From Anaeromyxobacter dehalogenans 2CP-C (lineage in GTDB: Bacteria; Myxococcota; Myxococcia; Myxococcales; Anaeromyxobacteraceae), in assembly GCF_000013385.1 (NCBI RefSeq), contig NC_007760.1:2419001-2483000 (forward strand): a stretch of DNA of 64,000 nucleotides, in the 5' to 3' direction. How positions within the stretch are numbered: the stretch's first letter is position 1; every line of letters begins with the position of its first letter. Shown here one piece after another: positions 47,832 to 57,632 of this stretch. Under the pieces are notes generated by a model that saw only the letters and a program-made list of their open reading frames with translations, was not told the DNA's origin and made no database searches. Made by a program: the position numbers and the translations under genes.

Positions 47832-47930
47832 CGGTCTCGCCACGGCGGCCACGGCCGTCCGGCGTTCACCGGACCCGCGGCTTTGCGCTTCACCCTGGGT
47901 ACGGGTGAATTGCCCTGAAGCGTGGTGCCT
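47832..47930 (-). ncRNA. Candidate c-di-GMP-I (GEMM-I) riboswitch aptamer
   Basis: On the minus strand the RNA reads CACGCUUC-AGGGCAA, then a perfect 7-bp hairpin (47909-47903 with 47895-47889), then GCGCAAAGCC (47888-47879) and a GC-rich P3-like hairpin (through about 47850). AGGGCAA and GCAAAGCC are the two most conserved single-stranded GEMM-I motifs, in the right order and separated by P2 as expected. P1-like pairing is possible (47921-47925 with 47840-47844). The position equivalent to G20 is G, favouring c-di-GMP over cGAMP. The 3-prime side is less consensus-like. Confidence 0.62.
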
Positions 47931-54648: not shown

Positions 54649-55887
54649 TCAGCGCCGGGGATGGCGCCGCGGACCCGGGGGACGGGACCCCGGTGCGCGA
54701 CCGTGCTGGGAGGGCGCCGCGGACGCCGGGCGCGGCGGCTGCGCGTGCCCGGGCCGGTCGCGGGGGCCGGCGAGCGGGAGGCGCTCGACGCGGATCACCT
54801 CGGGGCCGGGAACGGGCCCGCCGCGGCGCCGTTCGCCGCCGCGTTCGCCGCCGTGCTCGCGGCGATCCGCGGGACGGCCGCCGCGCTCCGGAGGGCGGCC
54901 GCCGCGATCCGGCGGACGGCCGCCGCGATCGGCGGGACGGCCACCCCGGTCGCCGGGGCCGGACCCGCGCCGGTTCCCGGGCCCGCGCCGCTGCGGCGCG
55001 TCGTCGCGAGCGGGCGCGGCGCGCGGGGCGGCCGCGTGCGCGGGCGTCGGTGCCGCGTGCGCAGGCGCGGCGTGCGGCCGCGGGGGCTGGCCGCGACGTC
55101 CACCCGCGCCGGACGGGTGTGCGGGCGCGCGGGGCGCGGGCTCCGGGGCGCGGCCGGACGGGACGAAGTCGGGGGTCAGCTCGCGCCGGACGTAGGCGCG
55201 CCAGATCTCCCGCGCGTCGCCCGCGGCGGCCTCGAGCGCGGGGTCGAGCGCGGCGAAGAAGCGGCGCAGGTTCTCGAGGTCGCGCCGGAAGAACGCCTCC
55301 GCCTGCCCGTTGTGCGCGGCGCCGACCACCTGCGGGAAGTCGATGACCACGGGCCCGTCGTGCCCGAGCAGCACGTTGTAGGGCGACAGGTCGCCGTGGA
55401 TGAGGTCGCAGCAGAGCATGCGCACCGCCTGGGCGCGCAGGTCGGCGTAGAGCGCGGCGGCGCGCTCGCGCGGCACGTGCGCGTCCACCAGGCGCGGCGC
55501 CGGGTGGCCGTCCGGGCCGACCACGAGCTCCATGAGCAGCACGCCCTCGTAGAACAGCACCGGGCGCGGGACCCGCACGCCCGCGGCGTGGAGCGCGTGC
55601 AGCGCGTCGGCCTCGCGCGCCTTCCAGGCCTCCTCCGCGGCCGCCTGCCCGAAGCGGCTCCCGCGATCCATGGCGCGCTGCGTGCGGCTGTCGCGGACGC
55701 GCCGGCCCTCGCGGTAGGCCGCGTCGTTGCGGAACGTGCGCGTCTGGCGGGCCTTGTAGACCTTGGCCGCGACCACCTCGCCGCCGGCCTGGACCAGCCA
55801 GACCTCGGCCTCCTTGCCGGTCTTCAGGCGCGCGCCGACGGCTTCGACCACGCCGTCGGCGAGGAGCGGTGCGAGGGGATCGTGCAT
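54649..55887 (-). CDS. RIO-type protein kinase with repetitive disordered tail
   Basis: Residues 1-230 form a RIO1-like kinase: KTGKEAEVWLV (22-32), AAKVYK with Lys42, the catalytic HGDLSPYN (His164-Asn171) and metal-binding VIDFPQ (Asp183). The remaining 180 residues are disordered Pro/Ala/Arg-rich sequence with four 7-residue GGRPxDR-type repeats, encoded by 21-bp tandem units at 54862-54945. Bacterial RIO kinases are rare and their substrates unknown. The ATG at 55887 lies seven bases after the stop of the RGG-rich gene. The two are a likely operon. Confidence 0.9.
   Translation of the reverse strand: MHDPLAPLLADGVVEAVGARLKTGKEAEVWLVQAGGEVVAAKVYKARQTRTFRNDAAYREGRRVRDSRTQRAMDRGSRFGQAAAEEAWKAREADALHALHAAGVRVPRPVLFYEGVLLMELVVGPDGHPAPRLVDAHVPRERAAALYADLRAQAVRMLCCDLIHGDLSPYNVLLGHDGPVVIDFPQVVGAAHNGQAEAFFRRDLENLRRFFAALDPALEAAAGDAREIWRAYVRRELTPDFVPSGRAPEPAPRAPAHPSGAGGRRGQPPRPHAAPAHAAPTPAHAAAPRAAPARDDAPQRRGPGNRRGSGPGDRGGRPADRGGRPPDRGGRPPERGGRPADRREHGGERGGERRRGGPVPGPEVIRVERLPLAGPRDRPGHAQPPRPASAAPSQHGRAPGSRPPGPRRHPRR
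54862..54945 (-). repeat. Four tandem 21-bp units inside the RIO kinase tail
   Basis: Units at 54862-54882, 54883-54903, 54904-54924 and 54925-54945 encode the 7-residue GGRPxDR/ER repeat. The unit preserves the reading frame, and the variants differ mostly at one codon. It looks like a slipped, in-frame minisatellite in an otherwise conserved kinase gene. Confidence 0.8.
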
Positions 55888-55894
55888 GCGCGAG

Positions 55895-56662
55895 CTACTT
55901 CTTCGGCGCGCCGCCGCCGGGGCCACCCGGACCGCGCCCGCCGCCGGGACCGCCCGGCCGCCGGCCGCCGCCGCCGCCCGGCCGCCCGCGCCCGCCGCCG
56001 CGCTCGTTGCGTCGGTCCTCGCGGAGCGAGTCCATCGAGAAGCCGCCGGTCGCGCCGGCTCCCTTGCCGCCGCCGCCACCGCCGCCCGGGCCGCGGCCGC
56101 CGCCGCCCCCGCCCCGGCCGCCGCGGCCACCCCGGCGCCCGCCGCGATCGTCGCGGTCGCCGCCGGCGGTCTGCTTCATGCTCGCGGGGAACAGGTCCAC
56201 CAGGAACTGGTGGTCGCCGAGCGTCTTGGCGCCCGCGACCGGCTCCTCGGCCCCGAAGACCCGCACCAGCCGGACGTCCTCGGCGCGGCGGCCCACCACC
56301 TCGACCGCGGCGCGGAGGAGCGCCAGGCGATCGCCGGAGACCCCGGTCGCCTCGGACACCGCGGCGTCGAGCGCGGCCTTCACGGCCTCGCTCTCGCCCT
56401 TGGGCGCCGCCTGCGCGGGCGCCGCGGCGGCCTCGGGCTGCGCGGCCTCGGGCTGCGCGGCGTCGGAAGGCGCCGCTTCGGCCGGCGCGGCCGCCTCGGG
56501 CGCGGCCTCGGGCGCGGCCTCCGGCGCCGGCTCGGTCGTGGCCGCCGGGGCGGGCGGCGCCGCGACGGGCTCGGGCTCGGCCGGGAGGTTGCGCCGCGCG
56601 GCCGCGATCGCCGCCGCCGCCGTCCGGATCAGGGTGCCGCTCAGCTCGGTCAGGGTCTTCAT
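55895..56662 (-). CDS. RGG-rich low-complexity protein
   Basis: The 255-residue product has an N-terminal helix (LTELSGTLIRTAAAAIAAARR), then a Pro/Glu/Ala repeat region (PEAAPEAAPEAAAP, AAQPEAAQPEAA), a folded alpha/beta segment (GESEAVKAALDAAVSEATGVSGDRLALLRAAVEVVGRRAEDVRLVRVFGAEEPVAG, about 100-160) and a C-terminal 80 residues of RGG/GRG repeats. Such RGG tails bind RNA in other proteins. It ends seven bases before the RIO kinase. The start is the ATG at 56662 (MKTLTEL). No named family. Confidence 0.68.
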   Translation of the reverse strand: MKTLTELSGTLIRTAAAAIAAARRNLPAEPEPVAAPPAPAATTEPAPEAAPEAAPEAAAPAEAAPSDAAQPEAAQPEAAAAPAQAAPKGESEAVKAALDAAVSEATGVSGDRLALLRAAVEVVGRRAEDVRLVRVFGAEEPVAGAKTLGDHQFLVDLFPASMKQTAGGDRDDRGGRRGGRGGRGGGGGGRGPGGGGGGGKGAGATGGFSMDSLREDRRNERGGGRGRPGGGGGRRPGGPGGGRGPGGPGGGAPKK

Positions 56663-56729: not shown

Positions 56730-57632
56730 CTAGGGCCTGGGCGGCGGGTGCTGGCGGGACCAGGCCTGGAACCGTCCGGCGGCCCCCTGGAGGCGGGGCG
56801 AGGCGGTCGCCCAGGAGAACGACCGGGTCAGGCGCAGGTCGCGGAGCGGGAGGATCCGGAGCGTGCCGGCCGCCACCTCGAGCTGCACGCTCCAGCGCGA
56901 GACGAACGCCACGCCCAGCCCCGCCACCGCGGCCATCTTGATCGACTGGTTGGAGCCGAACAGGAGCTCGGACCGGCGCACCGAGCGGGCCCCGAGGACC
57001 CCGGCCAGCGCCTCCTCGACCACCGCGCGGGTGTTGGACCCGGGCTCGCGGAGCAGCAGCGGGGCCGAGGCGAGGTCGGCCGCGCGGGAGATGCGCAGGA
57101 GGTCGCGCGCGGACGCGGCGGCGACCGCCACCAGCTCGTCCTCCAGGTAGCGCTCCAGGTGGACGCGCGGCGAGCGCAGCCGGCCCTCCACGATCCCGAG
57201 CGGCACCTTCCCGTCCGCCACCCACTCCAGCACGCGGGCCGTGTTCGCGACCTGGAGCCGGAACGGGACGCGGCCGTGCACGGCGCGGTAGCCGGCCACG
57301 AGCGGCGGGGCGACGTAGGACGCGGTGGTCATGCTGGCGCCGAGCACCACCTCCTCGCCCACGCCCGGCTCGTCCTGGAACGCGCCCTCCACCTCGCCGA
57401 GCAGCGCGTGCACCTGCTTGGCGGTGTCGAGCAGCCGCAGCCCCCAGTCGTTCGGCGTGACGCCCTTCGACGAGCGGACCAGCAGCGCGCGGCCGCACTC
57501 CTCCTCCAGGGCGCGGATCTGCGCGGTGACCGCCGGCTGCGACAGGTGGAGCAGCTTGGCGGCGGTGGAGATCTTCCGGGCCTGCGCGACCACGCGGAAG
57601 GTCTCGAGCTTGCGGGGATCGAGGCGGCGCAC
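56730..57632 (-). CDS. LysR-family transcriptional regulator
   Basis: The 300-residue protein has an N-terminal winged helix: LETFRVVAQARKISTAAKLLHLSQPAVTAQIRALEEECGRALLVRS. A LysR substrate-binding domain follows (VVLGASMTTASYVAPPLVAGYRAVHGRVPFRLQVANTARVLEWVADGKVPLGIVEG). It starts with GTG at 57632. The gene is not divergent from an obvious target; the CBS gene starts 160 bp away in the opposite direction. The target is unknown. Confidence 0.93.
   Translation of the reverse strand: MRRLDPRKLETFRVVAQARKISTAAKLLHLSQPAVTAQIRALEEECGRALLVRSSKGVTPNDWGLRLLDTAKQVHALLGEVEGAFQDEPGVGEEVVLGASMTTASYVAPPLVAGYRAVHGRVPFRLQVANTARVLEWVADGKVPLGIVEGRLRSPRVHLERYLEDELVAVAAASARDLLRISRAADLASAPLLLREPGSNTRAVVEEALAGVLGARSVRRSELLFGSNQSIKMAAVAGLGVAFVSRWSVQLEVAAGTLRILPLRDLRLTRSFSWATASPRLQGAAGRFQAWSRQHPPPRP

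Follow-up and report, generated by a model that had tools for sequence, protein, structure and literature searches.

A RIO1-type kinase gene and the gene of an RGG-tail protein form a probable operon of one Anaeromyxobacter lineage rather than a conserved system

Two neighbouring minus-strand genes of the soil myxobacterium Anaeromyxobacter dehalogenans 2CP-C encode a RIO1-type kinase and a protein with a glycine- and arginine-rich tail. They lie in a stretch of 64,000 nucleotides (C1:2419001-2483000), here called the window, of a genome that consists of a single contig of 5,013,479 bases. The gene for the RGG-tail protein (255 aa, 55895-56662) sits 5′ of the kinase gene (412 aa, 54649-55887), and a minus-strand spacer of 7 bp (55888-55894) separates the two. 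A sequence-only reading of the window had placed the pair at exactly these coordinates (54649-56662), and its 7-bp gap is equally correct, the first gene ending at 55895 and the second starting at 55887. Further upstream, a 300-aa ORF of LysR-like appearance (56730-57632, minus strand) ends 67 bp before the RGG gene; among the loci compared, this ORF is common only to the window genome and G004.

The kinase itself falls into an established superfamily. Its residues 34-212 match the Pfam family RIO1 (PF01163) with 129.9 bits, far over the cut-off of 22, which bears out its earlier identification as a RIO kinase, and a sequence search of the PDB ranks Rio1 chains as its best solved relatives, with E values from 2.4e-16 to 3.3e-16. 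The kinase domain (residues 1-239; 55171-55887, minus strand) contains a TGKEA loop, K42, HGDLSPYN and IDFPQ, and residues K25, K42, H164, D166, N171 and D183 are invariant across 20 aligned homologues. We take these elements to represent the GKEA loop, the ATP lysine, the HxDLSxYN motif and the metal-binding Asp. Because the RIO1 domain is accompanied by invariant catalytic residues, an active kinase is expected, and the protein is most likely an active bacterial serine kinase of the RIO1 type.

The closest described family is that of the PA4780-like RIO1-like kinases (NCBIfam NF041645). The window kinase aligns to positions 6-248 of the 274 in this profile (E 3.2e-86), with a score of 289 bits that stays under the equivalog cut-off of 350. 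Its tail starts after DFVPSG and carries a PEVIRV-like motif, whereas the kinases of seven genomes that pass the PA4780 model (L032, L127-L132) have xL(T/V)G at this point and lack the motif, which is also absent in L133. The kinases L127-L133, which pass or nearly pass the model, leave the domain via xL(T/V)G and in several cases finish in runs of arginine, which would fit two bacterial RIO1 lineages existing side by side in Myxococcota. Archaeal and eukaryotic Rio1 proteins (12ez, 1zp9, 4otp) share with the window kinase the RIO kinase sequence, the HxDLSxYN catalytic loop and the GKEA loop; however, its tail is different, and the role in ribosome maturation is not evidenced for the bacterial kinase.

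Rio is described as universal in archaea and eukaryotes (PMC1821047). In bacteria, RIO kinases were known from their sequences by 2005 at the latest, with RIO1 proteins reported for Deinococcus, Pseudomonas, Shewanella and Bradyrhizobium, among others (PMC1262709). The view that they are uncommon in bacteria, taken in the sequence-only reading, does not hold for Myxococcota: the kinase was detected in 121 of 195 genomes of this phylum, and in 103 of the 149 of high quality. The matches listed in a literature search, which covered mostly open-access papers, contained no mention of PA4780, no paper giving a function for a PA4780-type kinase and none pairing Anaeromyxobacter dehalogenans with RIO1.

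Behind the domain, the kinase ends in a low-complexity tail rich in Pro, Arg, Gly and Ala (residues 240-412; 54652-55170, minus strand), with 36 Arg, no Lys, eight Asp and seven Glu. The tandem repeats reported earlier are present as four consecutive GGRPxxR units (residues 315-342; 54862-54945, minus strand), which are also tandem at the DNA level. Both the length of the tail and its repeat unit differ between genera, from GGRPxDR in the window to GPRQAQQP in G002 and MNGQPxGENGQ in G058. Between G000 and G004 the tail has 34 synonymous and 31 amino-acid-changing codons, with 21 columns gapped, compared with 27 versus 3 and no gapped column in the kinase domain; between G002 and G005 the counts are 61 versus 81 with 40 gapped columns in the tail, and 22 versus 9 with none in the domain. 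The tail varies freely apart from one short motif close to its C-terminus.

This motif, PEVIRVERLPL in the window (54772-54804, minus strand), is kept in relatives as PEVIRVxRPPL (f1, the window's family), PQVSYVARP (f4) or GPVVVHVKRL (f6). A pattern that covers such variants, [PG]xV[ISTVE][RYFHQT][VIRK], is matched by 45 of the 61 complete kinase tails against a mean of 1.1 and a maximum of 5 in 500 shuffled trials, a figure that is descriptive because the pattern was composed after inspection of the tails, the tails are related by descent, and nine of the 70, which are cut short by the end of their stretch, were dropped (L004, L033, L047, L059, L134, L144, L149, L160 and L161). The G015 kinase falls outside the extraction pattern and is absent from both the gene tree and the tail counts. 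In the window's genome PEVIRV occurs once, at the kinase tail. An AlphaFold model of the kinase from 20 alignment rows is of low confidence (mean pLDDT 62.1, pTM 0.53); it places a strand at residues 363-365, inside the motif, which is a hint, no more, of docking through strand addition.

Of the two proteins, the RGG protein holds the greater interest. It begins with a conserved strand and helix, MKTLTELSGTLIR... (residues 1-28; 56579-56662), followed by a hypervariable linker rich in Ala, Pro and Glu (residues 29-89; 56396-56578), a folded part of helix-helix-strand-strand-strand order that includes VRLVRVFG and DLFPASMKQ (residues 90-164; 56171-56395) and the G/R-rich tail (residues 165-255; 55898-56170), all on the minus strand. 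AlphaFold gives 85 residues a pLDDT of at least 90, which by block means are mostly residues 1-20 and 91-160, the latter with block means of 91-97. The model predicts a strand at 3-8 and a helix at 9-25, then helices at 89-106 and 110-129 and strands at 130-137, 146-148 and 151-157. Nearly all homologues have MKTLTELSG-like N-termini and VRLVRVFG-like cores. The linker is freely variable in sequence and is missing from three distant homologues (L124-L126), which retain both halves of the domain. Together, the N-terminal strand and helix and the later α/β part would make up a single small domain, interrupted by an acidic linker that can be dispensed with.

Searches of Pfam, NCBIfam and PHROGs with the RGG protein returned no family with a convincing score, nor did a Pfam search with three pieces of its distant homologues. 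Comparison of the model with solved structures gave no Foldseek match with E < 0.001, and the best VIA match, with a Z of 3.3, is likewise not significant. Gyrase A, considered as a PDB relative of residues 1-168, reached a best E of 0.019 in an alignment that spans the linker, and was set aside as a chance match. Profile searches of the 195 Myxococcota genomes found the protein in 33 (A1) or 35 (A2), namely in f1, in f7 and in seven genomes of f13, f14, f15, f28 and f31. Among named relatives, its carriers are A. terrae SG22, A. soli SG29 and A. oryzae Red232; the gene is further present in a large number of assemblies of uncultured Anaeromyxobacter, Myxococcales and Deltaproteobacteria. The protein represents a new Myxococcota family within a known general kind. 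A literature search pairing Anaeromyxobacter with RGG, which covered mostly open-access papers, found no paper. One genome carries a second copy of the gene (L030, G011:C3:172978-173361), which is shortened, diverged and devoid of the G/R tail.

RGG-like tails in bacteria are readily dismissed as GC bias. The tail seen here had been described as an 80-residue RGG/GRG stretch of the RNA-binding kind; its G/R-rich character is borne out by composition (46 Gly and 16 Arg in 91 residues), while its length is 91 residues and 19 of these form a non-repetitive stretch. Composition alone predicts a mean of 4.0 RGG triplets; the tail holds five, a number also attained in 725 of 2000 shuffles. Wrong frames in the GC-rich window contain up to six RGG per 80 residues. 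As the triplets do not exceed composition and wrong frames reach six, the RGG count proves nothing here. A DNA pattern for two RGG units is likewise uninformative, with 144 + 144 matches genome-wide versus 128 + 123 for the control.

The codons of the tail are more telling. Synonymous versus changing codons number 14 to 0 (of 87) between G000 and G004, 14 to 2 (of 85) between G002 and G005 and 28 to 9 (of 81) between G000 and G007; the 22 to 16 (of 87) between G000 and G002 make a weaker case. These counts indicate purifying selection on the tail, less clearly so in wider comparisons, and it is this conservation, rather than any motif count, that would be the sign of function. Compared with RNA-binding proteins of the RGG-tail kind, the window protein likewise has a G/R-rich, disordered-looking tail (low pLDDT), kept by selection, beside a folded domain. 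It differs from them in that its triplets do not go beyond composition and its folded domain matches no recognised RNA-binding family.

Embedded in this tail is a motif, GGFSMDSLREDRRNERGGG (55991-56047, minus strand), for which a helix is predicted at residues 210-222 with less certainty than for the folded part. Its helical core, FSMDSLREDRRNER, is widely kept: FSM[DE] and the following DR are found in f1, f7, f13, f14, f15 and f31, and not in L124 and L125. Serine 209 of FSMDS is conserved in at least 90% of aligned rows. The FSMD core occurs once in the window's genome.

Both genes are present in 24 genomes, 16 of them in f1, four in f7 and four elsewhere; G020 and G055, with fragments or weak hits, were left out of this count. 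The genes are adjacent in five of the 24 (G000, G002, G004, G005 and G007), all of the window's genus, and apart in the other 19. Within Anaeromyxobacter, five of six genomes with both genes keep the order RGG protein to kinase. In the same genus, the genes are 417 kb apart in G006, the kinase stands alone in G003 and neither gene is found in G001; elsewhere in f1 the distance is about 29 kb in G017 and, by coordinates, 3.9 Mb in G010. In f7, four genomes at least 93% complete (G035, G039, G049 and G051) have the RGG protein, and the kinase was not detected in them. Among high-quality genomes, the kinase occurs in 19 of the 25 that carry the RGG protein and in 82 of the 124 that lack it (Fisher p = 0.48, from counts made by hand from the survey tables, with the weak kinase hits in G073 and G166 scored absent), so the two proteins co-occur no more than background predicts.

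The search for co-occurring pairs in other genomes, which the sequence-only reading had proposed, therefore went against a conserved pair: adjacency was found in 0 of 18 genomes carrying both genes outside Anaeromyxobacter, and co-occurrence lies at background. Of its statement that the two belong together, the tight spacing stands and a dedicated pairing is weakly supported. It had also held that separation of the genes in relatives, with tails absent or varying without constraint, would count against the pair; the genes are separated and the kinase tail is mostly unconstrained, whereas the RGG tail is constrained.

Since most relatives keep the genes apart, the two RNA-linked proteins are probably separate and do not make up a dedicated system, and the pair would be an operon at the level of a lineage. 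The explanation we favour, at a probability of roughly 55% for the whole mechanism with its docking steps, is that two separately evolving RNA-linked genes have become an operon in one Anaeromyxobacter lineage. It builds on the anatomy, family membership, conservation and linkage pattern described above, from which we infer the following roles. The RGG protein would act as an accessory protein associated with RNA and the kinase would be active on serine, the two being co-transcribed and co-expressed in that lineage. Most likely, the G/R-rich tail of the RGG protein would contact RNA and its FSMDSLREDR helix would dock a protein partner. The variable arginine-rich tail of the kinase may hold the enzyme close to nucleic acid or ribosomes, and its PEVIRV-like motif may serve as a docking or self-docking strand. 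The kinase would then phosphorylate a serine of some substrate near ribosomes or RNA.

A single rearrangement could instead have joined two unrelated genes by chance, without functional meaning. The separation by 417 kb in G006 fits this explanation, as do the variable neighbours of the RGG gene between genera: ten neighbour proteins in six other genomes, which suggest no common pathway, include a ribonucleotide reductase, a metallo-β-lactamase-fold protein, a hydrogenase, a sigma-54 activator, an OPT transporter, an AMP-binding enzyme and an FHA protein, and three of the ten have no family. Adjacency requires one to two changes on the kinase gene tree, whose deep forks are not resolved. Yet the pair survives divergence while its outer flanks change, with the same gene order in three outer settings (G000/G004, G002/G005 and G007) by a comparison of gross neighbourhoods based on simple gene calls, and the four relatives have spacers of about 12-30 bp, which exceed the 7 bp of the window but look homologous to its spacer. 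Meaningless adjacency is thus unlikely, and an order kept through three outer flanks could reflect real coupling within the genus. In the loci L094, L095 and L096 of three f7 genomes, a gene for a class II ribonucleotide reductase flanks the RGG gene in divergent orientation; it was identified as such in L096 and by similarity in L094 and L095.

At the other extreme, the two proteins could be a dedicated kinase and substrate, with the RIO kinase phosphorylating the RGG protein, for instance at the FSMDS serines, and so controlling RNA binding or condensation. The short spacers, the gene order shared by five species across three kinds of outer setting and the conserved serine 209 speak for such a pair. 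Nonetheless, adjacency in only five of the 24 genomes, co-occurrence without excess and retention of the FSM[DE] serine in the four f7 genomes in which the kinase was not found make it distinctly unlikely.

More speculative still is the proposal that the RGG protein founds an undescribed Myxococcota family of RNP scaffolds that organise RNA condensates, each with an α/β domain split by a variable acidic linker, plus a G/R tail bearing a helical docking motif, and that in Anaeromyxobacter it came under control of the RIO kinase through the operon; we regard this as a long shot. Tails that are functionless by-products of low-complexity slippage in GC-rich sequence would account for the DNA-level repeats and the shifting length and repeat unit of the kinase tail, and are plausible for those repeats alone; for both tails they are very improbable in view of the purifying selection on the RGG tail and the conserved motifs within each.

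With its RGG protein, Anaeromyxobacter provides an example of a bacterial RGG-like tail that is subject to selection. The conserved kinase-tail motif and the RGG protein tail offer two concrete handles, and the bacteria are culturable. Elsewhere in the window, a c-di-GMP-I riboswitch lies at 47841-47924 on the minus strand (38.9 bits versus a gathering threshold of 35), just 5′ of the minus-strand ORF 47763-46417.
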